From Advenella incenata (lineage in GTDB: Bacteria > Pseudomonadota > Gammaproteobacteria > Burkholderiales > Burkholderiaceae_B): a DNA stretch of 64,000 nucleotides. A program made the position numbers and the translations under genes. Under the pieces are notes generated by a model, which had not been told where the DNA came from, did not search any database, and worked only from the letters and a program-made list of their open reading frames with translations. The stretch's first letter is position 1, and each line of letters opens with the position of its first letter. Below are positions 7,681 through 63,831 of this stretch, piece by piece. The DNA lies in the NCBI RefSeq assembly GCF_004217095.1, contig NZ_SHKO01000004.1, positions 186,001 to 250,000 on the forward strand, in the 5' to 3' direction.

Positions 7681-8631
7681 TTGAAAAAATCCATACTGGC
7701 CGTTATGGCGGCATTGGCCTCGGGTAGCGCGCTGGCTGCGTATCCGGAAAAGCCAATTACCATGATCATTCCGTTTCCGCCGGGACAGGCGACCGATACC
7801 TTTGCTCGTGCACTTGCCGATGAATTGGGTAAAGCGGTGGGGCAGCCTGTTATCACGGAAAACAAAGCGGGTGCCGGCAGCAATATTGGCATGCAGCAGG
7901 CTGTGAGAGCCAAGCCCGACGGCTACACGATTGTGGTAGGCGGCAGCGCCGCGGCCGTGAACCAGACGCTCTATACAAAACCCGGATATAGTCTGCAGGG
8001 TGATCTGCAGGCTGTGTCGGGCGTATTTTCTGTGCCTCTGATTTTTCTGGCCAATCCCCAGTCTGGGATTCATTCGCTGCAGGATGTCGTTGACAAATCC
8101 CGGGCGGAACCCGAGTCGCTGGCCTATGCCAGTGCCGGCATTGGCGGCACCCAGCATTTGTCGGCAGAAATGTTCCAGGCAGGCACTAATATTTCGCTCA
8201 GACATATTCCGTATAAAGGCAGCGGTCCTGCACAAACTGATTTTATCGGCAATCAGGTACCGCTCATGGTCGATTCGGTGACCGCTGCATTGCCTTATAT
8301 CAAGGACAAAAAGGCCGTGCCTTTGGGCGTGACGACGGCCACTCGCTTAAAGGCACTGCCCGATGTGCCGACAGTGGGTGAGATGGTCCCCGGCTTTGAG
8401 GCCATTGGTTGGGCTGCCGTATTTGTACCCAGCCAAACACCCGCAGACGTGGTTGAAAAATTGAACAGTGAAATCGTCAAGGCGCTCAACAGTCCTAAAC
8501 TGTCGGCCTTTATTGCTGATCGCGGCGCGATACCGATGCCACAAACGACGCAACAGGCCAATGACTTTATCAAGGCCGAAGTGGCCAAATGGGGTAAGGC
8601 GGTGAAGGATTCGGGCGCGACGGTCGATTAA
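7681..8631 (+). CDS. Bug-type (TctC-like) periplasmic solute receptor, TTG start
   Basis: A 316-residue receptor whose signal peptide starts [18 protein letters not shown]. The start is TTG at 7681, preceded by GGGGAGACAG at the correct distance; the only upstream ATG in frame would add a hydrophilic stretch before the signal peptide. Mature motifs are [30 protein letters not shown] and [15 protein letters not shown]. It is in tandem with the receptor at 6536 but is not a recent duplicate, because its ligand-loop signature (PPGQATDT against APGGTTDL) differs. It probably serves a second substrate of the same pathway. No membrane components are present nearby. Confidence 0.87.
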
Positions 8632-8714
8632 GGCAAGGCTGGTTAAGCGAAGGCGCGGTTATATGGCAAGGTGCTGTGCAAATCGATTGGCAGTGCTGCC
8701 TGTGCAATAACGCG

Positions 8715-8733
8715 CCGGCTATCAGCCGGTTTT
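8715..8733 (+). terminator. Rho-independent terminator-like hairpin
   Basis: CCGGCT (8715-8720), loop ATC, AGCCGG (8724-8729), then TTTT. It lies about 85 bases after the second Bug gene and overlaps the last codons of the convergent alkB gene, so it probably ends the Bug transcript. Confidence 0.5.
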
Positions 8734-51902: not shown

Positions 51903-52889
51903 TCAGGTTCCCTTTATTCCGGCTGCTTTAATTACCTGGCTCCATTTTCGCGTTTCGGCATCAATAAATTCACCAAACTGGGCAGCGTTACTTTGACTGG
52001 ATTCCAGTCCCAGTGTTGACAGTTTCTGTTGTATGTCCGGATCAGACAGCGCCCGATTGATCTGGTCATCCAGTCTTTTCACAATATCCGCGGGCACGGC
52101 AGTTGGGGCCATGAATCCATACCAGCCGGATGCAACGACATCCGATAACCCCTGCTCACTTAGCGGGGTCGCTGCGGGATAAATTGCACTGGGCGTAGTA
52201 GAGGCAACGCCTAGCACACGCAAACTGCCGCGACGAATGTGTGGCAGTGCGGCCGTGATTGCAGTCAGCGTCGCGTCAATTCGTCCCCCGGCTAGTAAAT
52301 CGGTATAGGCAGCAACATCGCCGCGATATTGAACGGTCAGTCCCTTCACTTTTGCATTGCGAAAGAGTAGTTCGCTGGCAAGGTGAGGTAATGAGCCATA
52401 ACCTGGGGAACCAAAAGTCAGGCCCTTGGATTGTGCTTTTCCGTAGCTGATCAGATCCTTGACAGAGCCTATCGATGTTTTTGCATTAACCACCAGGAAA
52501 AGTGGTGCCACTGCGGTCATGGCGATAGGTTGCAGATCTTTGCGCGGATCATATTGCAGCGGGCCGTACAGTGCTTCCAGCGTTGCGTAAGGCGCCGCAG
52601 CATACAAAATGGTGTATCCATCATTTGGTGCATGTGCGACGAAGCTATTGCCAACCCGCGTACCTGCTCCGGTTTTGTTTTCGACAATAAAAGCCTGTCC
52701 CAGATGCCGGGCAAGATAATCGCCAATCATTCGTGCGGACAGATCATTGGGGCCACCCACGCCATAGGGTGAGACAATTTTAACCGGACGTGACGGCCAG
52801 TCTTCCCGGGAAAATGCCCGTGGAGCGAGGCCGCTGCATATGCCCGCAACTGCCGTTCCCAACAACATGCGTCGATTTATTCCCATCAT
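51903..52889 (-). CDS. Bug-type (TctC-like) periplasmic solute receptor
   Basis: A 328-residue receptor. Its signal has the twin-arginine look (INRRMLLGTAVAGICSG) and ends near APRAFS. The mature part has RPVKIVSPYGVGGPNDLSAR, QAFIVENKTGAGTRVGNSF, and a shorter ligand loop with G-G-P-N-D in place of the more common GG-T/S-x-D. It is divergent from the LysR gene at 53035, which probably controls it together with the synthetase operon. Its 3' end cuts into an old aldehyde dehydrogenase gene. Confidence 0.87.
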   Translation of the reverse strand: MMGINRRMLLGTAVAGICSGLAPRAFSREDWPSRPVKIVSPYGVGGPNDLSARMIGDYLARHLGQAFIVENKTGAGTRVGNSFVAHAPNDGYTILYAAAPYATLEALYGPLQYDPRKDLQPIAMTAVAPLFLVVNAKTSIGSVKDLISYGKAQSKGLTFGSPGYGSLPHLASELLFRNAKVKGLTVQYRGDVAAYTDLLAGGRIDATLTAITAALPHIRRGSLRVLGVASTTPSAIYPAATPLSEQGLSDVVASGWYGFMAPTAVPADIVKRLDDQINRALSDPDIQQKLSTLGLESSQSNAAQFGEFIDAETRKWSQVIKAAGIKGT

Positions 52890-53034: not shown

Positions 53035-53955
53035 ATGTATGATTCCGAACCGAAGCGACGCGCCTCTACGCCGGAAATCACGCTCCGTCAGTTGCGTGCG
53101 TTCCTTGCGGTTCTTGAATCCGGCAGTTTCTCCGAAGCCGCCAGTACAATGCATTTGTCGCAGGCGGCACTCAGCGGCCTGGTCAAGGAGCTGGAAAGCA
53201 GATTGGGTGTACGTCTGTTGGATCGCGATACGCGCAATGTCAGCGCATCGCCCGTAGGCGTCGCATTTGAACCCCTGGTGCGTCGATTGCTTGGTAATTT
53301 GGAAGAGGCGCTGGAGAGTGTTACTAACCTCAAGGAGTTGCGCAGGGGAGTGGTGCGCGTTGCAGCGCCCGAACCCTTATCCTGTACGTTGCTTCCTGAG
53401 CTCATCGCTCGCTATGAAAAGCACAATCCTGGTATTGACGTTCGATTTGAAGATGTGCCCATCGAACAGGTTTTGTCTCGTTTGCATAGCGGCAGCGCTG
53501 ACATCGGATTTGGGCCGGAAGGCGTGCCTGTTGACGAGGCCATACAAGCCCATATGATCAGGGCCGATCCGCTATGGGTAGCCTTACGGCGGGATGATCC
53601 GCTAGCGGCAAACAAATCAGTATGCTGGAAGGAACTGAGCAACAGGCCACTCATCAACTATATGCCTAACCTCACAGTCAACGTATTGAGCAACGTACCA
53701 CAGCGATACCATCCTCCCAGAATTATTTCCGTGCATCGCGTCAATACTGCGCTTTCCATGCTGCGGGTCCGCCATGGTTACGTGATCTGTCCATCGATGG
53801 CCCGAGATCTGGCAGAGGGATTTGGGTTGACGATTCGTCCGCTATCGCAGCCTACTGTCACGTGGCATATCGCAGTCTTCGCCAGGCACCGGTCATCATT
53901 GTCTCCGGCGGTGGAGAGCTTTCTTGATTTCACCTTGAATTCGCCATTGGCGTGA
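53035..53955 (+). CDS. LysR-family transcriptional regulator
   Basis: A 306-residue LysR protein with HTH at residues 15-75 (TLRQLRAFLAVLESGSFSEA, QAALSGLVKELESRLGVRLL) and a full effector domain. It is divergent from the Bug gene at 51903, and the acyl-CoA synthetase fusion follows 230 bp downstream in the same direction; it is the probable regulator of both. Confidence 0.9.
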   Translation: MYDSEPKRRASTPEITLRQLRAFLAVLESGSFSEAASTMHLSQAALSGLVKELESRLGVRLLDRDTRNVSASPVGVAFEPLVRRLLGNLEEALESVTNLKELRRGVVRVAAPEPLSCTLLPELIARYEKHNPGIDVRFEDVPIEQVLSRLHSGSADIGFGPEGVPVDEAIQAHMIRADPLWVALRRDDPLAANKSVCWKELSNRPLINYMPNLTVNVLSNVPQRYHPPRIISVHRVNTALSMLRVRHGYVICPSMARDLAEGFGLTIRPLSQPTVTWHIAVFARHRSSLSPAVESFLDFTLNSPLA

Positions 53956-54184: not shown

Positions 54185-57100
54185 ATGATCCAAGCCAATC
54201 TCGACTCTTTCTTATCGCCAGCGTCCATTGCCGTCGTTGGTGCATCCTCCAACCCGGACAAGATCGGTGCGGTGCCGGTACGCTATCTTGTCGAACACGG
54301 TTACGACGGTGCGCTATACGCCATCAATCCCAACGGGGGACAGATTTACGGACGTCCTGCCTTTGTTTCGCTGCTTGCGGTTAAACAGCCAATAGATCTG
54401 GCCATTTTTGCCATTCCGGCAAGTAGCGCCGAGGCGGCGCTGGACGACGCAATTGCCAGCGGTGTTAAAAATATTGTCATGTTTTCAGCGGGGTTCGCAG
54501 AAACGGGACAATCAGGAAGTCTGGCGCAGGACCGCTTTTCGAGCAGAGCCCGGGCGGCCGGCATTCGGCTACTTGGTCCAAATTGTCTGGGGTTCATCAA
54601 TATTGCCCGGTCTGTGTATGCCACTTTCTCCCCTGTATTGAGTGTCGGGTTGGCCAAACCAGGGCCCATTGGAATCGTCAGCCAGAGCGGGGCCTTCGGT
54701 GCCTATGCATATGCCATGGCACAGCGGCGTGGTGTTGGCCTGTCGAAGTGGATAACGACGGGAAATGAGTCGGATATTGATATTGCGGATTGCATAGCCT
54801 GGATGGCGCGTGATCCGGATACTAAAATCATCATGGCCTATCTTGAAGGTTGCCGCAATGGAGTCAAGTTACGACAGGCACTGGAGCTGGCACGCGCTGC
54901 AGGAAAGCCGGTGGTACTTGTTAAGGTGGGACGTACCAGACTGGGAGCACAGGCAGCAGCATCGCACACTGCAGCCTTGGCAGGCGACGATGCTGTCTAT
55001 GACGCCATGTTCCGTCAATGTGGCGTCTGGCGAGCTCGCTCGATCGAGGAATTTTTTGATATTGGCCAAGGCCTCGCCGTGGCTGGAACCCCAGTCAACG
55101 GGCGCCTGGGTTTGCTTACGGTATCTGGCGGCGTGGGCGCGTTGATGGCAGATGACGCTGCTGATGCTTCAATTGATGTAGCGCCGTTACCACCTGCTGT
55201 GCAAGCGTTGATCCGCAATAAGGTACCTCTGGCTGTTACCGACAATCCTGTTGATCTGACAGGTCAGGTAACCACTGAACCGGAAGTGATCGAGCTGGCT
55301 GCCCGAGCCATGTTGGGAGAAGCAGATTATGGCAGCCTTCTTATATTCCTTGCCGCCTATGGTAGCACCCCGATCATGCAGCAACTTCAGCGCAAGCTGG
55401 CCCAGGATTTGCGACGTGATTTCCCAGACCGAGTCATTATCTTCAGTGCGCTCATTGGTGCTGAGCAACTGCAGATGCTCGAAGCGCTAGGTTGTCTGTG
55501 TTTCTCGGATCCGGCAAGAGCCATTCGCGTTCTGGCAGCCATGAACTTTTTTGCAGCCCATCATGAACGGCCTTTAACACCGGACCAACCGAAGGGTGAG
55601 ACCGTTCGCCTGCATCGCGAAGTCTACAATGAAGCCGAAGCGATGGATTTATTGGCCGGTTTTGGTTTTTCTACCGTCCCGTTGCGTCAAGCCCGATCTC
55701 GCGATGATGCAACTGTCTGCGCTCGTCATTTGGGTTTTCCCGTGGTCATGAAGGTATTGTCCTCCGACATTATTCACAAGAGCGATGCAGGCGGCGTTGT
55801 CTTGAATATACGGGATGGAGACGAAGCTGGTGCCGCTTATGACAGTATCGTGGCAGCAGTGGGCTGTGCAGAACCAACTGCTCAGTTAGACGGCGTGCTT
55901 ATTGCACCGATGGTCCGCGGGGGCATCGAATGTATTCTCGGCGTGCGTCAAGACCCCTCGCTGGGGGCCGTTGTCATGTTGGGTTCGGGTGGCATCAATG
56001 TTGAACTGATGGGCGATATTGCACTCCGGCTTGCGCCTGTCAATCGTGAGCAGGCTCAGGAGATGATCAGCGAATTGAAAATAGCTCCTCTGTTAGCCGG
56101 TGCACGAGGTTTATCAAGCGCGGATGTCAACGCCCTTACTGATGCCATCGTGCGTATCTCGCAATTCGCACTCGCGGCTGGCAACAGCCTCGTTTCATTG
56201 GAAATAAATCCAATTATGGTGATGCCTGAAGGCCAGGGTGCAATCGCACTGGATGCCGTTTTATTGACCCGCTCGCCAATGTCCGCGACATCACCAGACG
56301 CTTGTTCTGCCGTCATGACCACGTTGCCGCTGTTTGAGATGGCACGTATGCGGGCTGCAACAACCCCGCGGCGTCATTCCGTGCAGGGTTTTGCTGGGGA
56401 TGCGCCGGACTCGAGCATGCGCTGGGTGAATCAATTTACGCATACACGTCGCTTGCGAAGCCCTGACGATAAGGAAGTTGTCACACCCAATAACGACACA
56501 TTGTTTTCGAATGCCTGGCTTGATTTGTCCGCAGGTCCATTGATAATCGACGTGCCGGCATTCGGATCTCGTTATTGGGTGTTGGGGTTCCTTGATGCCT
56601 GGACCAATCCGTGGGCCTATGCGGGGCGGCGAACGACTGGAGGAAAGGCGCAACGGCTCTTTGTCCACGGACCTGGGTGGGACGGGGAAATCCCTGCGGG
56701 GATGCATGTCATTAGTGCGCCCAGTGAAGATGTATGGATCATTGGACGTATCCTGGTGGATGCAGATTCTACAGATCTTGCGAAGGTGCATGCTCTGCAA
56801 GATCGCTTTGCTATCTGCAGGCCTGACGGCGCGCCGGCGCTGTCCACCGTTGATTGCCTTATCCATAATCGGGATACGGGCACACCGGACGCGAGCGAAT
56901 ACTTGCGCGTGCTGGATATGATGCTCCGCCGTAATCCTCCTGCGGCGCCGGTGCCGGGATGGCCGCCGGCCACATGCGACATTCATACAGCACTGGACGA
57001 GGTTTACACCAATCTGCGCGAAGTGGCCAATTCATCAGCGCTGGGTGGAGGATGGACGACTGCTATCAGTATACGTACCGGGTTCGACGACGACATTGTG

Positions 57101-57529
57101 ACGCGCGCAAGAGTAGCACGCAATTGGATCGGCACGCTTGGAATCGACGAGGCGATGTATATCATGGCTGAAGTCGATGCAAGAGATGAGGCGCTGACAG
57201 GACAACGACGCTATGTCTTGCGCTTTGCACCTGGCGAAGGTCCGAAGGTCGATGCATTCTGGTCAATTACGTTATATCGACGCAGCGACTGCCTGCTTGT
57301 TGCCAATCCGATTAATCGATATTCCATAGGTGATCGGACTCAAGGTTTGCGCCGTGATGCAGACGGCGGCTTGAGCATCGCTATTCAGGCAGATAACCCT
57401 GGGTTAGGAAAAAACTGGTTGCCGGCTCCGTCTGGAGAAAATTTCTACCTGACCTTGCGGCTATATCAGCCGCAACGACCACATCTTGAAGGTACGTTTT
57501 CTTATCCGGCAATTGAGCGAGTAGATTGA
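54185..57529 (+). CDS. Fusion: ADP-forming acyl-CoA synthetase with DUF1254 and DUF1214
   Basis: One open frame of 1114 residues. Residues 5-140 form the CoA-binding domain (SIAVVGASSNPDKIGAVPVR), 150-290 the succinyl-CoA-ligase-like part with GPIGIVSQSGAFGAYAYAMA and the phospho-His segment AAASHTAALAGDDAVYDA (His261), 300-465 the second ligase domain, 470-695 an ATP-grasp (FPVVMKVLSSDIIHKSDAGG, ending LEINPIMVMPEG). This is the whole of an ADP-forming acetate/acyl-CoA ligase (about 700 residues). From residue 711 comes DUF1254 (PLFEMARMRAATTPRRHS, VTPNNDTLFSNAWLDLSAGP) and then DUF1214 (near 980-1105, LLVANPINRYSIGDRTQG). Those domains normally make a separate exported protein. A Met in CSAVMTTLPLFEM may mark the old start. 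No signal peptide is present. Confidence 0.9.
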   Translation: MIQANLDSFLSPASIAVVGASSNPDKIGAVPVRYLVEHGYDGALYAINPNGGQIYGRPAFVSLLAVKQPIDLAIFAIPASSAEAALDDAIASGVKNIVMFSAGFAETGQSGSLAQDRFSSRARAAGIRLLGPNCLGFINIARSVYATFSPVLSVGLAKPGPIGIVSQSGAFGAYAYAMAQRRGVGLSKWITTGNESDIDIADCIAWMARDPDTKIIMAYLEGCRNGVKLRQALELARAAGKPVVLVKVGRTRLGAQAAASHTAALAGDDAVYDAMFRQCGVWRARSIEEFFDIGQGLAVAGTPVNGRLGLLTVSGGVGALMADDAADASIDVAPLPPAVQALIRNKVPLAVTDNPVDLTGQVTTEPEVIELAARAMLGEADYGSLLIFLAAYGSTPIMQQLQRKLAQDLRRDFPDRVIIFSALIGAEQLQMLEALGCLCFSDPARAIRVLAAMNFFAAHHERPLTPDQPKGETVRLHREVYNEAEAMDLLAGFGFSTVPLRQARSRDDATVCARHLGFPVVMKVLSSDIIHKSDAGGVVLNIRDGDEAGAAYDSIVAAVGCAEPTAQLDGVLIAPMVRGGIECILGVRQDPSLGAVVMLGSGGINVELMGDIALRLAPVNREQAQEMISELKIAPLLAGARGLSSADVNALTDAIVRISQFALAAGNSLVSLEINPIMVMPEGQGAIALDAVLLTRSPMSATSPDACSAVMTTLPLFEMARMRAATTPRRHSVQGFAGDAPDSSMRWVNQFTHTRRLRSPDDKEVVTPNNDTLFSNAWLDLSAGPLIIDVPAFGSRYWVLGFLDAWTNPWAYAGRRTTGGKAQRLFVHGPGWDGEIPAGMHVISAPSEDVWIIGRILVDADSTDLAKVHALQDRFAICRPDGAPALSTVDCLIHNRDTGTPDASEYLRVLDMMLRRNPPAAPVPGWPPATCDIHTALDEVYTNLREVANSSALGGGWTTAISIRTGFDDDIVTRARVARNWIGTLGIDEAMYIMAEVDARDEALTGQRRYVLRFAPGEGPKVDAFWSITLYRRSDCLLVANPINRYSIGDRTQGLRRDADGGLSIAIQADNPGLGKNWLPAPSGENFYLTLRLYQPQRPHLEGTFSYPAIERVD

Positions 57530-57626: not shown

Positions 57627-58559
57627 ATGGACGCTAAGAAATTGAAGGATCGCGTTGCAATTGTGACGGGCGCCGGTACCGGTCTGGGACGTGCGCACGC
57701 ACTGGAATTGGCGCGCCATGGTGCGCTGGTGGTGGTCAATGACATCAGCGGTCTGGCTCAGGCCGTAGTAGATGACATATGCGAAGCAGGGGGCAAGGGT
57801 ATTGCCAACTGCGGTGATGTGACTTCCTACCAGGATATGCAGGCGATGGCTGAACAGACACGCGACCACTTTGGGCGAGTGGATATACTGGTGAATAATG
57901 CAGGCATTTTACGCGACCGAACGTTTGCCAAAATGACTTTGGACGATTTTCGTCTGGTGATGGAAGTGCATGTAATGGGTGCAGTAAATGCCATCAAAGC
58001 CGTCTGGACGCAAATGCAATTGCAGCAATATGGTCGGATCATACTGACGACTTCCTCTTCCGGGCTGTACGGTAATTTTGGCCAGTCAAACTATGGCGCT
58101 GCCAAGATGGCACTGGTTGGCCTGATGCAAACATTGTCTCTGGAAGGTGCGAAGCATAACATCCGAGTCAATTGCCTGGCGCCTGCAGCAATAACGGCCA
58201 TGACAGCAGGCTTGCTGCCTGATGAGGCTGTCAAGGTGTTGACGGCGGAGCGAGTCAGCCCGGGCCTGATCGCCTTGCTAGGAGAGCAAGCACCGACGCG
58301 AATGATTATGTTGGCAGGCGGAGGCAGCTTTGAATCGGCCCATATAACCATGACCAGGGGAGTGCATGTCAGTTGGAAAAACGACCCGGCAAAGCAAGTG
58401 TGTGAGCAACTGGACCGAATTTTGGATCAGACCGAGCAGTTTGTCCCAGCGTCAGGATGGGATCAGTCGAAACACGAATTGGGCAAAGCGTTCCATGCTG
58501 TTGGAGCATTCGCGGAAGATGGCCCCGACGGAGATCGCGGCGTAGGCCAACCAAGCTAG
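57627..58559 (+). CDS. Short-chain dehydrogenase (17-beta-HSD4 / FabG-like)
   Basis: A 310-residue SDR: LKDRVAIVTGAGTGLGRAHA, ALVVVNDISG, NNAGILRDRTFAKM, catalytic Ser in TTSSSGLYGNFGQ and Y-x-x-x-K in YGAAKMALVGL. The tail of 60 residues resembles that of peroxisomal-type hydroxyacyl-CoA dehydrogenases, suggesting a 3-hydroxyacyl-CoA or beta-hydroxy acid substrate. It is 97 bp behind the synthetase fusion and probably co-transcribed, so the pair may activate and oxidise one acid. RBS GGAGGAGAAA. Confidence 0.92.
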   Translation: MDAKKLKDRVAIVTGAGTGLGRAHALELARHGALVVVNDISGLAQAVVDDICEAGGKGIANCGDVTSYQDMQAMAEQTRDHFGRVDILVNNAGILRDRTFAKMTLDDFRLVMEVHVMGAVNAIKAVWTQMQLQQYGRIILTTSSSGLYGNFGQSNYGAAKMALVGLMQTLSLEGAKHNIRVNCLAPAAITAMTAGLLPDEAVKVLTAERVSPGLIALLGEQAPTRMIMLAGGGSFESAHITMTRGVHVSWKNDPAKQVCEQLDRILDQTEQFVPASGWDQSKHELGKAFHAVGAFAEDGPDGDRGVGQPS

Positions 58560-58690: not shown

Positions 58691-59701
58691 CTACTCCACC
58701 TTGATGTTTGATTCGCTGATCACACTCGACCATTTTTGTGTTTGATCCTGCATAAACTTGCCAAATTCTGCCGGTGAAGAGGGCGTAGTCTGGATAGCCT
58801 GTTTGTCAAAAAATGCAGCCATTTCGGGTGTATTCAGAACGGTTTTGATTTCTGTGTTCAGACGCGAAATGATGTCTTCGGGTGTGCCGGCCGGCGCCAG
58901 CATGCCGATCCAGGACTTGGCTTCGAAAGACGGATAATACTGAGTGATGGACGGCACGTCCGGCAATTGAGGTATCGGCTGTTTGGTTGTGACCGCAAGC
59001 GCTTTGAGCTTGCCTGCGCGGATATGTGAAAGGACAGAGCTTGTACTGACAAACATGACCTGAACGCGCGCCGCCAGTAAATCGGCAATGGCGGGCGCGC
59101 CACCTTTGTACGGAATATGCGTAAGATTGATGCCAGTAGTCGACTTGAATAATTCAGCCGCAAGCTGGTTTGAACTGCCTGCGCCCGTTGATGCATAGTT
59201 CAGGGCGGTGGGATCGCGTTTTGCCATTGCAACGAGCTCCGGAACGTTATTGGCTGGTACGGAAGCCGGTACGGCAAGAACCAAGGCCGAGGTGCCGAGC
59301 AACGATATCGGCGTCAGGTCCTTGTCGGAGTCGAATGGCAACTTGTACAGAAGCGGGTTGATGGCGTGTGTGTCGAAAGCCATCAGCAATGTGTATCCGT
59401 CCGGTGCTGAACGGGCAACCTGCGCGGCACCAATCGAACCACCGGCACCCGCTTTGTTGACGACCACTAACGGTTGCTTTAATGCGCCACTTAACTGGCG
59501 AGCCATGCTTCTGGTGACGACGTCGACAATGCCGCCCGGGGGAAACGGTACGACAAGCTCTATCGGCTTTTGTGGGTAAGCTGCAGATGCTGGGGTGGCA
59601 ATACAGGCCAGCATGACGAAGGCTAGTGCATTTCCGAAAATGCGTGCCGGGGCACGACCAATCTTTTCTTTTGCGATTTGCTTGTATTTATAGAAAGGCA
59701 T
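58691..59701 (-). CDS. Bug-type (TctC-like) periplasmic solute receptor
   Basis: A 336-residue receptor with a long signal region (GNALAFVMLACIATPASA ends near residue 40). Motifs: KPIELVVPFPPGGIVDVVTR, QPLVVVNKAGAGGSIGAAQV, HIPYKGGAPAIADLLA. It is the last gene of the leftward tetR-cyclase-Bug unit. It lies convergent with the SDR gene, and presumably feeds the cyclase family hydrolase. No tctAB genes accompany it. Confidence 0.87.
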   Translation of the reverse strand: MPFYKYKQIAKEKIGRAPARIFGNALAFVMLACIATPASAAYPQKPIELVVPFPPGGIVDVVTRSMARQLSGALKQPLVVVNKAGAGGSIGAAQVARSAPDGYTLLMAFDTHAINPLLYKLPFDSDKDLTPISLLGTSALVLAVPASVPANNVPELVAMAKRDPTALNYASTGAGSSNQLAAELFKSTTGINLTHIPYKGGAPAIADLLAARVQVMFVSTSSVLSHIRAGKLKALAVTTKQPIPQLPDVPSITQYYPSFEAKSWIGMLAPAGTPEDIISRLNTEIKTVLNTPEMAAFFDKQAIQTTPSSPAEFGKFMQDQTQKWSSVISESNIKVE

Positions 59702-59749
59702 AATGTAAACCATTGTCTCGGTGGTTGTGAAGGGATGGGTAAGGCGTTG

Positions 59750-60535
59750 CTAATCCAGGATCGCCACTGTCCGACACCAGCCCGCTGAGGCATCTTTGAT
59801 CTTTATGGGAAAACAACTGATCGTAAATCCATGGGACGGCAACTGATCCAGGTTTGTGAGCTTTTCCATCTGGAAATAGCCGATTTCACGACCTGCTTTG
59901 TGGCCTTCCCAGAGGATGGCTGGATCTTTGCTTTTGTTAAATCGCTCAATGACATACTTGAATGCGGGATCCCAGCTGTACGAGTCGGTACCGACAATCC
60001 GCACGCCTTGCTCCAGCATCCATAGTGTGGCGTCGCGTCCGAAACCACAGGCACTTTCCCAATAATCCGCTTGCCCTTGTCTGGCTCCAGCACGCGTGTT
60101 GGCGACCACGATATCCAGGGGTTTGAGTTCGTACCCGATGCGCTCAAGCTCCTCTTGTATGTCTTGTGGCGTGACCACGTAGCCAGCTTCAAAGTGACGA
60201 AAATCCAGCTTGACGCCAGGCCTCAGGCACCAGTCGAGAGGCACCTGATCGATGCCGGGTGCGGGCTCGCCGCCCTCGGTTAATGCGTGATTGGTGGTAG
60301 GGTGGTAGTGCCAGGGAGCATCCATATGGGTGCCGGCGTGGGTTGATAATGAAATTTTTTCCACGGCCCAGGCTTTCCGGTCGGGCATGTCAGCGGGAGT
60401 CACCCCTGGCAGAAGTTTGCTGAACAATTCCCACGAATCGTCGTGATTGACATAGTCAATTTTTGGTTGGTGGTGGGCAGGAGAGGTGGGCTTGTCTTCA
60501 AGAGTGACTGATAGGTCGATAATTTTTCGGGTCAT
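59750..60535 (-). CDS. Cyclase-family hydrolase (kynurenine formamidase-like)
   Basis: A 261-residue protein of the metal-dependent cyclase family. It starts KIIDLSVTLEDKPTSP and has the metal-binding motif SLSTHAGTHMDAPWHYHP (H-x-G-T-H-x-D-x-P-x-H). Family members hydrolyse N-formylkynurenine or ring amides and lactones, or form cyclic products. The ATG at 60535 is selected; the remaining upstream codons overlap the tetR gene. It lies between tetR and a Bug receptor and probably converts the captured compound. Confidence 0.9.
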   Translation of the reverse strand: MTRKIIDLSVTLEDKPTSPAHHQPKIDYVNHDDSWELFSKLLPGVTPADMPDRKAWAVEKISLSTHAGTHMDAPWHYHPTTNHALTEGGEPAPGIDQVPLDWCLRPGVKLDFRHFEAGYVVTPQDIQEELERIGYELKPLDIVVANTRAGARQGQADYWESACGFGRDATLWMLEQGVRIVGTDSYSWDPAFKYVIERFNKSKDPAILWEGHKAGREIGYFQMEKLTNLDQLPSHGFTISCFPIKIKDASAGWCRTVAILD

Positions 60536-60546
60536 GCGTGTCCTTT

Positions 60547-61194
60547 TTATTTGCGAACAGTCTTGGAGACGTTGGGCGCCGAAAATCCGGCGACCACGAA
60601 TGCAACCAGCTGTTTGATGATTACTGTAGGATCGTCCGTGTCGCAAAGCCCGGCCGATAGTCTGTTAAGGCGATGATAGTTTTTATCACCATCGCTGATG
60701 ATGTACATCATTGCGCCAATGGTGAAGGAATAGCGCCAGAATGCTTCTTCACGGTTCAACCCAGGCGTGACTTTCATAAAAGACTCGACGAACAGCAGGG
60801 CCATGGCGTCGTATTGTTCAAAGATCGCGACGTTGGTTGTTGCCTGCGGCAGGGCCCTGGCTTGCATCAGCAGCCTGACCAGAAGCCGGCTATCGCCAGT
60901 GGTCTGCAGGCTATGCATGATGGGCGGAGCGACCAGCGCATCCACAATTCGTTCCAGCGTCAGCATCCCGTCTCCTGACAGTTTTTCAAGGGCCTGCATA
61001 CGCAAGGCGTTGATCGGCTGGGCGACCGATTCAAGTACGGCGCGTATCAGGTCATCTTTATTGCCGAAATGGTAATGGATTGCTGCGACATTGACGTCTG
61101 CGAGCGTCGTAATATCTTTTAATGAAATTGCGTCAAAACCCCGGGTCGCGAAAAGAGTGAGGGCGCTGGCGGTGATTTTTTCTTTAGTCGACAT
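60547..61194 (-). CDS. TetR-family repressor
   Basis: A 215-residue regulator: HTH at residues 5-52 (KITASALTLFATRGFDAIS, TTLADVNVAAIHYHFGNKD), then a long C-terminal domain of the CerR/PsrA-like size. The ATG at 61194 is favoured because the alternative 27 bases upstream lies inside the 46-bp palindrome 61203-61248. The gene heads the tetR-cyclase-Bug unit and probably represses it and itself through that palindrome. Confidence 0.9.
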   Translation of the reverse strand: MSTKEKITASALTLFATRGFDAISLKDITTLADVNVAAIHYHFGNKDDLIRAVLESVAQPINALRMQALEKLSGDGMLTLERIVDALVAPPIMHSLQTTGDSRLLVRLLMQARALPQATTNVAIFEQYDAMALLFVESFMKVTPGLNREEAFWRYSFTIGAMMYIISDGDKNYHRLNRLSAGLCDTDDPTVIIKQLVAFVVAGFSAPNVSKTVRK

Positions 61195-61348: not shown

Positions 61349-62335
61349 TCATTCCAACGATACGCCGCTACGTTTGACCACCTCTCCCCAGTTATCATAT
61401 TCCGAGCGGATGTAGGCTGCCGCCTCTTGCGGGCTACTGCTGGTGCGCACGATAGCGCCGATCTGCGAAAGCTTGGCACTTACGTCCGGTGTGCGCATTG
61501 CCGTCGACAATGCATCAAATGTCGCTGTGATTCGTGGGCCGGGCGTTCCGTGCGGATAAATGAGCATTAGCCAGGTTGCGGCGAGGAAATCTGCAAACCC
61601 TTGTTCTGCAGTAGTCGGGACATCTGGCATGCCGCTCAGGCGCTTGGGCGTGGCTGTCGCCAGTGCGCGCAACTGACCGCTTTTGACGAAGGGTTGCACG
61701 CCGGCAGCGGTTTCCAGTGCAAGAGAGACTTGGCCGGCGACAACATCGGTTAAGCCTGGCGCGCTTCCCTTATAGGGGACATGCAATAGGTCTATGCCTA
61801 CTTGTCGCTTGAACTCCTCCATTGCCAGGTGAGAAACGGTTCCGTTACCGGAGGACGCATGCGTAAGTTTGCCTGGATGGTTTTTCGCGAAACTGATCAG
61901 CTCCTGTATGTTAGTAAACGGCTGAGATGGGTGGCAAACCAGTACGAAAGGAAGATCGCAGACCAGTCCAACAGCTTCAAAGTCGTTAATCGAGTCGTAG
62001 CGGACGGATTTATACAAATGCGGGTTAGTGGCAACCGCAGACATGTGAGTAAGCATCATGATTGTGCCGTCGCCAGGGGACTTTGCAGTCAGTCCCATTG
62101 CAATACTGCCCCCTTGTCCCGGTCTGTTGTCAACAATGTAGTTGTCGCCCGTGATGGTTTGCAATTTTTCGGCAAGCAACCTGGCCACGATGTCCGTTGC
62201 CTGCCCAGGGGGAAAGCCAACGATGATCCGTACTACTTCCGCAGCCTTTGAGGATTCCGCGTGGACCAAAGCGCAAAGTCCGGCACTAACTGAGGCGATA
62301 AGCATTTTTCGCCGTGAATGCGTGAGTTGTGTCAT
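61349..62335 (-). CDS. Bug-type (TctC-like) periplasmic solute receptor
   Basis: A 328-residue receptor. The N-terminus has a twin-arginine-like signal (SRRKMLIASVSAGLCALVHA). Motifs: [54 protein letters not shown]. The ligand loop PPGQATDI is like that of the receptor at 7681, which suggests a related ligand. It is downstream of the CoxG, hydratase and hydrolase genes in one leftward operon and likely supplies their substrate. Confidence 0.88.
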   Translation of the reverse strand: MTQLTHSRRKMLIASVSAGLCALVHAESSKAAEVVRIIVGFPPGQATDIVARLLAEKLQTITGDNYIVDNRPGQGGSIAMGLTAKSPGDGTIMMLTHMSAVATNPHLYKSVRYDSINDFEAVGLVCDLPFVLVCHPSQPFTNIQELISFAKNHPGKLTHASSGNGTVSHLAMEEFKRQVGIDLLHVPYKGSAPGLTDVVAGQVSLALETAAGVQPFVKSGQLRALATATPKRLSGMPDVPTTAEQGFADFLAATWLMLIYPHGTPGPRITATFDALSTAMRTPDVSAKLSQIGAIVRTSSSPQEAAAYIRSEYDNWGEVVKRSGVSLE

Positions 62336-63068: not shown

Positions 63069-63800
63069 TCAATGCCCCTTTTTCATCGAAGCGGCCGTGT
63101 TTACCATGGAATGTAGCGTTCTTGCGTAATCAATGGCGGCCTGTTCATCCATACGAGGCGCCACGCGTAGGTATTCCTTTAGCCCAAGAATGGCGGGCCG
63201 TGGCCGTGCCAGCAGCAGGTCAATGAAGCGTTGCACTTCGCTGTCGAGCCGATTGTCTGAAACAACCTGACTTATCAGACCATAGGCAAGCGCCCGCTGT
63301 GCATCAATGAAGTCGGCGGAGTAAGCCATCCACAGTATCGCGTTGCGGTTTAACCGGTCATAGACCGCTGACATAACCATGGTGGGCATGACATTGTGAC
63401 TGATCTCGGGGATATTGAAGGTCGCGGCATCGCTGGCGAAGCTGACATCGCATAATGACGCAATGGCGGTGCCAAATCCCATGCATCTGCCTTTAATCAC
63501 ACCAATGATCGGTACCTTGGCACCTCGCATGGCTTGATAGCTGCCGAAGATGCCGTCGTATTCATCCCGGCGCGTGTAAGCCTCCGAGGCTGCGGGGGTC
63601 GGGCCAGCGTCCCTGATGCGCCCTGTGCAAAAGTCAGGGCCGGCGCTCGTCAGTAGTACTGCATCAGACGTCTCGTGCGCCTTGAGCAGGACGTCGGAAA
63701 GTGCCGCCGCCATGCTGTCAGATACGCCGTTGTCCTCGGTACGATTCAGGGTGATGTGGAGTAAGCGGCCTTTTTGTTCAAACTTCAGGTGTTGATGCAT
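63069..63800 (-). CDS. Enoyl-CoA hydratase/isomerase family protein
   Basis: A 243-residue crotonase-fold protein. It has FEQKGRLLHITLNRTEDNGV, LLTSAGPDFCTGRIRD and the oxyanion-hole segment KVPIIGVIKGRCMGFGTAIA; the usual catalytic Glu of hydratases (AEFALPE) is replaced by FNIPEISHNVMPTM, giving Glu in IPE only. Probable role: hydration or isomerisation of an acyl-CoA. It precedes CoxG by 5 bp and lies behind an alpha/beta hydrolase gene, so the operon may degrade a cyclic or aromatic acid. Confidence 0.85.
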   Translation of the reverse strand: MHQHLKFEQKGRLLHITLNRTEDNGVSDSMAAALSDVLLKAHETSDAVLLTSAGPDFCTGRIRDAGPTPAASEAYTRRDEYDGIFGSYQAMRGAKVPIIGVIKGRCMGFGTAIASLCDVSFASDAATFNIPEISHNVMPTMVMSAVYDRLNRNAILWMAYSADFIDAQRALAYGLISQVVSDNRLDSEVQRFIDLLLARPRPAILGLKEYLRVAPRMDEQAAIDYARTLHSMVNTAASMKKGH

Positions 63801-63831
63801 GTAGGATATCTCCATCTATTCAGAAAAAGTG

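Follow-up and report, generated by a model that had tools for sequence, protein, structure and literature searches.

A single open reading frame of Advenella incenata joins an ADP-forming acyl-coenzyme A (acyl-CoA) synthetase, its activity being predicted, to a DUF1254-DUF1214 module. This frame occupies 54185..57529 on the forward strand of the window, by which we mean the whole stretch of 64,000 nucleotides that was analysed (contig NZ_SHKO01000004.1, positions 186,001 to 250,000), and runs uninterrupted over 1114 codons. Comparison with relatives indicates that the fusion is genuine and old. In 52 of the 55 loci examined, an enzyme forming CoA thioesters is joined to the DUF gene of this clade or its nearest outgroups, or lies beside it. 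We propose, at slightly better than an even chance, that the protein is a two-module catabolic enzyme: the first half would convert an imported carboxylate into its CoA thioester and the DUF1254/1214 half would perform a reaction linked to this one, with the thioester as its most likely substrate. Both halves clearly belong to known families; a description of their combination was not found in the openly licensed PMC text searched, subscription journals and preprints being outside the search.

Domain composition of the fused protein

The domain set of the ACD superfamily (CoA-binding, succinyl-CoA-ligase-like and ATP-grasp) is complete in one chain, with all three domains above the Pfam cut-off (Table 1). 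CoA_binding also exceeds its cut-off at residues 13-103, and Ligase_CoA_2 (residues 310-387) is slightly under it (19.8 versus 23.7 bits). The synthetase half is collinear over residues 9-690 with the 4-hydroxybutyrate--CoA ligase (4-hydroxybutyryl-CoA synthetase) 8wzu, whose residues H256 and H535 are, according to excerpts of PMC11494057, the swinging-loop and the ATP-grasp phosphohistidines. The same excerpts describe that in ADP-forming synthetases the phosphate of ATP is received by a first histidine, from which it moves to the swinging histidine and on to the acid, before the attack of CoA. The corresponding residues H261 and H531 are invariant in the 16 aligned fusions, which represent 16 of the 19 complete fusions (window counted). 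By its domains and both phosphohistidines, the N-terminal half is a complete ADP-forming acyl-CoA synthetase with predicted activity, as the first-pass annotation of this DNA had stated. The NCBIfam models for acetate-, 4-hydroxybutyrate- and 3-hydroxypropionate--CoA ligase and for the succinate--CoA ligase alpha subunit matched this half, none reaching its own (equivalog) cut-off, and the NCBIfam scan gave no match for the DUF half.

The 8wzu enzyme possesses both phosphohistidines but lacks the approximately 400 additional residues of DUF1254-DUF1214. The feruloyl-CoA synthetase FCS1 has, in the excerpts of PMC6388921, the same three Pfam domains as the fusion, also without DUF1254-DUF1214. 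In the PatZ-type protein acetyltransferases (9it0, 9isq), as in the fusion, a synthetase-like region is accompanied by a further C-terminal domain. This domain is an acetyltransferase, which we take to be of the GNAT family, whereas the fused protein has DUF1254/1214 instead and retains the synthetase histidines; the Pfam scan detected no acetyltransferase (GNAT) domain after the synthetase part, the remaining chain being DUF1254/1214. The A. incenata genome contains nine matches over at least about 685 residues of the synthetase half, the fused gene included, and only one gene that matches the DUF half at E 0.001. One synthetase paralogue of this genome (C1:1804126-1806267, L008) displays three stops inside the match (two TGA and one TAG) and is perhaps a decayed copy.

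In the C-terminal half, DUF1254 precedes DUF1214, the order expected for the family, and both are above the Pfam cut-off. This half was modelled with AlphaFold2 from an alignment of 31 sequences, with a mean predicted local distance difference test (pLDDT) score of 72 and values below 50 at model positions 46-60, 238-277 and 326-334. VIA-align placed VPA0106 (3u07) first (Z 25.6, root-mean-square deviation (rmsd) 4.3, 335 aligned residues), followed by VPA0735 (2p3y and 3vb9; Z 21.2 and 21.2, rmsd 6.5 and 6.7, 333 and 337 aligned residues) and by the Burkholderia cenocepacia protein 6ans (Z 12.5, rmsd 4.7, 275 aligned residues). Since these are the only proteins above Z 7.0 among the matches listed, the others being treated as common beta-sandwich arrangements, the model indicates that the DUF half is a whole member of the VPA0106/VPA0735 two-domain fold. 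VPA0106, VPA0735 and 6ans are, unlike the fusion, separate proteins without a synthetase, and to our knowledge none has a known activity. The open frame, the Pfam domains and this fold agree with the first-pass annotation, which had described one polypeptide joining the synthetase to a complete DUF1254-DUF1214 module.

A set of 34 residues is conserved both in the clade (at least 93% of 46 rows) and in distant proteins (at least 85% of 28), including D771, D780, R796, D804, R855, W957, R974, W1026, S1027, R1045, N1077, W1078, R1092 and Y1094. Another 25 polar residues distinguish the clade, where each is found in at least 97% of the rows, from the distant set, where none exceeds 20%; R729, H731, R746, W747, R979 and N980 are examples, and some of these residues also occur in the operon copies. 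This pattern would fit a shared core with a changed substrate.

Read by eye and with a crude hydropathy score, the stand-alone members of the clade have no signal peptide, and several distant DUF1254/1214 proteins seem to carry one. The DUF module of the fusion is internal, without an N-terminal signal peptide. The view that DUF1254/1214 proteins are usually exported, taken in the first-pass annotation, does not suit this clade. We infer that the fused enzyme is cytoplasmic from the lack of a signal peptide and from the need for ATP and CoA.

DUF1214 was detected in 104 of 398 phylum-wide genomes, and the window frame was the sole DUF1214 frame above 850 amino acids among the matches listed. 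The excerpts of openly licensed PMC papers on DUF1254/1214 consist of gene tables, domain mentions and models, and contain no tested activity of such a protein. The Caulobacter protein CC_2518 is annotated as "phosphatidylserine decarboxylase (DUF1254)", and DUF1254 is elsewhere listed with putative HNH-type nucleases; the excerpts of the two papers contain no test of these assignments (PMC3751524 and PMC6299218, respectively).

CoA-thioester-forming partners and gene neighbourhood

The 55 loci comprise this DUF1254/1214 clade and its nearest outgroups; several are near-duplicates, so that they do not count as 55 independent events. Four arrangements were observed. The enzyme is fused in 24 loci (the window, L029-L047, L061 and L094-L096, including L033, which is cut, and L061, which is broken) and split in four (L048, L088, L089 and L090, the DUF sequences of L048 and L090 being identical). 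Sixteen loci (L052-L060, L062-L064, L097, L101, L122 and L123) have a CaiB/BaiF CoA-transferase, non-homologous to the synthetase, directly before the DUF gene. The order CaiB/BaiF CoA-transferase, DUF, TctC is found in all 16, with a LysR gene before it in 14 and a carboxylesterase gene after it in six. Finally, eight loci (L091, L092, L093, L098, L099, L120, L121 and L124; L099 is from the megaplasmid of Cupriavidus metallidurans CH34) combine a synthetase (41-52% identity), TctC and a tandem DUF1254/1214 pair. The two members of each tandem pair are divergent and branch separately in the DUF tree, a hint that they may form a heteromer or carry out two successive steps. No partner lies beside the DUF gene in the three other loci (L049, L051 and L050, whose synthetase is about 4 kb away on the other strand). 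Downstream of the DUF gene, L051 encodes a DctM-type permease and an NMT1-like binding protein. The reference proteins for CaiB/BaiF, thiolase, carboxylesterase, IclR, synthetase and TctC were confirmed by Pfam.

As a control, BLAST was run on stretches of 10.8-16.5 kb around 24 hand-picked distant DUF1254/1214 loci (20 plus L100 and L125-L127). None of them gave a synthetase and one (L141) gave a CaiB-type gene, AMP-forming CoA ligases being outside this search.

Neighbouring genes were called with a codon model, an approximate procedure, and labelled by BLAST with the reference proteins. The tallies cover 24 fused or split loci; they leave out the window, L029, L030 and L043, where the fused gene was not called and where the fusion status rests on the frame and BLAST analyses. 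Within three genes of these 24 loci, a gene of the carboxylate-binding TctC family is present in 23, LysR in 21, a short-chain dehydrogenase (SDR) in 15, a thiolase in seven and a carboxylesterase in three. Pfam was also applied to 126 neighbours, drawn from 22 of the 28 fused or split loci; TctC (24), LysR (20), short-chain dehydrogenase (15) and thiolase (5) lead the family counts. Neither crotonase nor MaoC nor acyl-CoA dehydrogenase belongs to the 25 commonest of the 104 Pfam families, so that each has at most one member in these 126 neighbours.

In the window, a crotonase-family gene is located at 63069-63815 on the opposite strand, 4.5 kb past the dehydrogenase. Three TctC genes lie within 10 kb (51903-52889, 58691-59713 and 61349-62335), the first of them in the position where the fusion relatives also have TctC, and Pfam identifies a putative cyclase-family gene at 59750-60646.

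Table 1. Features of the fused gene and of its immediate neighbours, in window coordinates.
Feature	Position	Strand	Residues	Basis
TctC (Bug) solute-binding protein, divergent	51903..52889	-		Pfam
LysR-type regulator, directly upstream of the fused gene	53035..53955	+		Pfam
Fused gene, ADP-forming acyl-CoA synthetase and DUF1254-DUF1214	54185..57529	+	1114 aa	Pfam; kept in relatives
CoA-binding domain CoA_binding_2 (PF13380)	54224..54598	+	14-138	Pfam, above cut-off
Succinyl-CoA-ligase-like flavodoxin domain Succ_CoA_lig (PF13607), with swinging phosphohistidine loop	54659..55069	+	159-295	Pfam; alignment with 8wzu
Codon of H261, counterpart of 8wzu H256 (swinging-loop phosphohistidine)	54965..54967	+	261	Alignment with 8wzu
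ATP-grasp domain ATP-grasp_5 (PF13549)	55613..56260	+	477-692	Pfam, above cut-off
Codon of H531, counterpart of 8wzu H535 (ATP-grasp histidine, first phosphate acceptor)	55775..55777	+	531	Alignment with 8wzu
Linker, last residue Met711	56261..56317	+	693-711	Alignment of fusions
DUF1254 (PF06863)	56426..56815	+	748-877	Pfam, above cut-off, E 2.6e-47
DUF1214 (PF06742)	57149..57475	+	989-1097	Pfam, above cut-off, E 3.7e-33
Short-chain dehydrogenase, downstream	57627..58559	+		Pfam

Proposed function of the DUF1254/1214 half

In the proposed pathway, a carboxylate would be imported and the first half of the enzyme would convert the acid, ATP and CoA into a CoA thioester, ADP and phosphate. The same compound would next be processed by the DUF1254/1214 half, most likely in its thioester form and by hydration, hydrolysis or a lyase reaction, and the dehydrogenase and thiolase, where present, would complete a beta-oxidation-like cleavage. 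The fusion would couple two steps that are done by neighbouring genes in relatives. Two features favour the thioester as substrate: across the clade, the type of partner varies but its making of thioesters does not, and the dehydrogenase and thiolase genes beside many fusions are mostly without an adjacent hydratase. The rarity of crotonase, MaoC and acyl-CoA dehydrogenase among the neighbours would leave one reaction that the DUF half could supply. The first-pass annotation had placed the DUF half in the cytoplasm, possibly acting on the substrate of the synthetase. Such action, in the cytoplasm and on one substrate stream, is supported by the presence of the same clade beside separate synthetases or unrelated CoA-transferases; that the two halves share a substrate is still something that we infer.

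The top Foldseek match of the full-length model of the fusion (predicted template modelling score, pTM, 0.60) is DddX (7cm9), the ATP-dependent dimethylsulfoniopropionate lyase, with 27% identity in the structural alignment, and the likeness consists of fold and distant sequence similarity. According to excerpts of PMC8163506, DddX is an ACD enzyme which forms a CoA thioester and then performs a second reaction, a lyase step, on the thioester that it has made. Unlike the fusion, it runs both steps on the ACD scaffold without a DUF1254/1214 module. A bolder reading, which we consider less likely than not, is that the cytoplasmic DUF1254/1214 proteins of the clade represent a novel class of enzymes acting on acyl-CoA, such as a hydratase for enoyl-CoA or a lyase for acyl-CoA distinct from crotonase and MaoC, which works beside unrelated thioester-forming enzymes and is fused to the synthetase in one lineage.

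Several observations weigh against a step on the thioester. The stand-alone sisters L049 and L051 have neither a synthetase nor a CaiB-type gene in the fetched stretch. Distant DUF1254/1214 members often have a signal peptide and no such CoA enzyme nearby, so that the ancestral chemistry of DUF1254/1214 need not involve CoA. No such SDR or thiolase was found within three genes in the 16 CaiB-type loci, where the pathway may therefore differ, and nine of the 24 fused or split loci have no SDR label. Six nearest non-fused synthetases (44-50% identical) were taken from 300 genomes of the order. For five of them (G012, G084, G781, G816 and G046), the stretch retrieved contains no DUF1254/1214; contig ends limit two of the stretches to 9.6 and 12.3 kb, and the G084 synthetase is at a contig end. 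The sixth, G485, is in a DUF operon. Since close relatives occur without DUF1254/1214, the synthetase does not need it, and the idea of a DUF1254/1214-specific synthetase clade was rejected on these five cases.

Because of the partnerless sisters, the distant members without CoA enzymes, the CaiB-type loci without SDR or thiolase and the synthetases without DUF gene, the main rival is a DUF half that acts before the activation and makes the free acid, for example by a hydrolysis or lyase reaction on an imported conjugate. The exported look of several distant genes without CoA enzymes nearby would then reflect a chemistry of the fold on non-CoA compounds. Six of the 16 CaiB-type and three of the 24 fused or split loci have a carboxylesterase-family gene no more than three genes away, and a fungal DUF1214 (PF06742) protein is modelled as a glycosyl hydrolase in the excerpts of PMC4634964. 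We nevertheless regard this rival as less likely than a step on the thioester: the CoA enzyme comes first in both the synthetase-DUF and the CaiB-DUF gene orders, although gene order is a weak guide, and the 25 polar residues kept in the clade and not in distant members are consistent with a changed substrate.

Less probable again is a DUF half that serves the synthetase as a non-enzymatic module for binding, oligomerisation or regulation. The literature covered assigns no catalytic residues to the family, and the clear fold matches of the DUF half are structural-genomics or putative uncharacterised proteins. However, the ratio of nonsynonymous to synonymous substitution rates (dN/dS) is lower in the DUF half than in the synthetase half, DUF1254/1214 stands alone without the synthetase in other genomes, and a synthetase-specific module would leave the pairing with an unrelated CoA-transferase unexplained.

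Relatives, history and significance of the fusion

A scan with the DUF half, in which each of 84,980 species was represented by a single genome, gave 36 loci, which were classed by stop-to-stop frames and by BLAST with each half. Full-length fusions occupy 18 of these loci (L029-L032 and L034-L047), the window being additional. Two other loci are fused: L033, cut by a contig end, and L061 of Variovorax sp. WDL1, whose frame is broken at about 8170-8726, inside the DUF half, by a draft-assembly error or in a decaying gene. The two halves are adjacent genes in one locus (L048), DUF1254/1214 stands alone in 14 (L049, L051-L060 and L062-L064), and L050, which begins at a contig end, cannot be assigned as fused or separate. 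The closest named relatives are Advenella, with 97% and 95% identity in the DUF half.

A family-level search of 268 genomes, partly overlapping with the 36-locus set, detected the clade (threshold E 1e-90) in 24 genomes: 20 with frames of 1118-1211 amino acids, one with a cut frame of 574 and three with frames of 447. Fusion was judged here by frame length, the synthetase part being checked by sequence in L012-L014 and L094-L096. In the three genomes with 447-residue frames, the DUF gene is preceded, at a distance of 13 bases, by a complete synthetase gene. Within the genus, three of ten genomes have the gene, which is therefore accessory.

Comparison of the window with its two nearest relatives gives a dN/dS of 0.12-0.14 in the synthetase half, 0.05-0.09 in the DUF half and 0.23-0.67 in the linker, where the sites are few. 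Both halves are under purifying selection and the linker is looser. Across the 16 aligned fusions the linker measures 16-66 residues, with 14 of the fusions at 16-25, and the long linkers are rich in Ala, Pro, Ser and Thr. The first-pass annotation had suggested that Met711 could be the former start of the DUF gene. The column of this residue contains Ile in six fusions, Met in five, Val in three and Leu in two, and 26 of the 27 stand-alone gene calls, in which the start codons are guesses, begin 10-23 residues before it. The exception is one of two alternative calls for L049, the other call starting further upstream. A former start at Met711 seems unlikely on these alignments.

A quick-search tree of 65 DUF rows unites the fused and split forms, together with the unassigned L050, in one clade (Shimodaira-Hasegawa-like approximate likelihood ratio test, SH-aLRT, 96). 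The four split rows are one branch (100) within the fused clade, with nesting forks of 82-91, and the CaiB-linked rows belong to a separate clade (99); the five context labels require six changes. The synthetase tree was obtained from 36 rows by a careful search, after 11 near-duplicates were left out. It also groups the fused and split rows in one clade (100/100), with the split rows inside the fused clade (96/97 for the set of 10 fused and two split rows). The nearest outsiders, with moderate support (88/80), are synthetases from DUF-bearing operons; the remaining DUF-operon synthetases and those without a DUF gene are further out and mixed. Because both trees nest the split forms inside the fused clade, these would be later fissions. 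The simplest account would be that separate genes underwent one fusion followed by later fission. The fused clade also includes L037 and L039, which are alphaproteobacterial (L039 from a metagenome assembly), and this suggests transfer.

The first-pass annotation had argued against a recent accident, and had proposed to look for a stop or frameshift at the junction and for separate genes in all relatives. The frame is likewise open across the junction in 18 other named assemblies, and the two genes are not separate in all relatives. An artefact from a missed stop, a frameshift or a misassembly between two adjacent genes, for which the three of 24 family genomes with genes 13 bases apart and the frame break of L061 (though within the DUF half) could be cited, has a negligible chance in view of the same frame in 18 of the 36 named-genome loci, the fusion-length frames in 20 of the 24 family genomes (the sets overlap) and the nesting of the split forms.

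DUF1214 is common and a structure (2p3y) has existed since 2007, yet the family is without tested activity in the PMC literature searched. The partner pattern is more telling than the fusion itself. The fusion to a CoA ligase and the pairing with an unrelated CoA-transferase narrow the search to CoA-linked carboxylate catabolism. The fused protein is a single molecule in which both activities can be assayed, and a question concerning a large family becomes directly testable.

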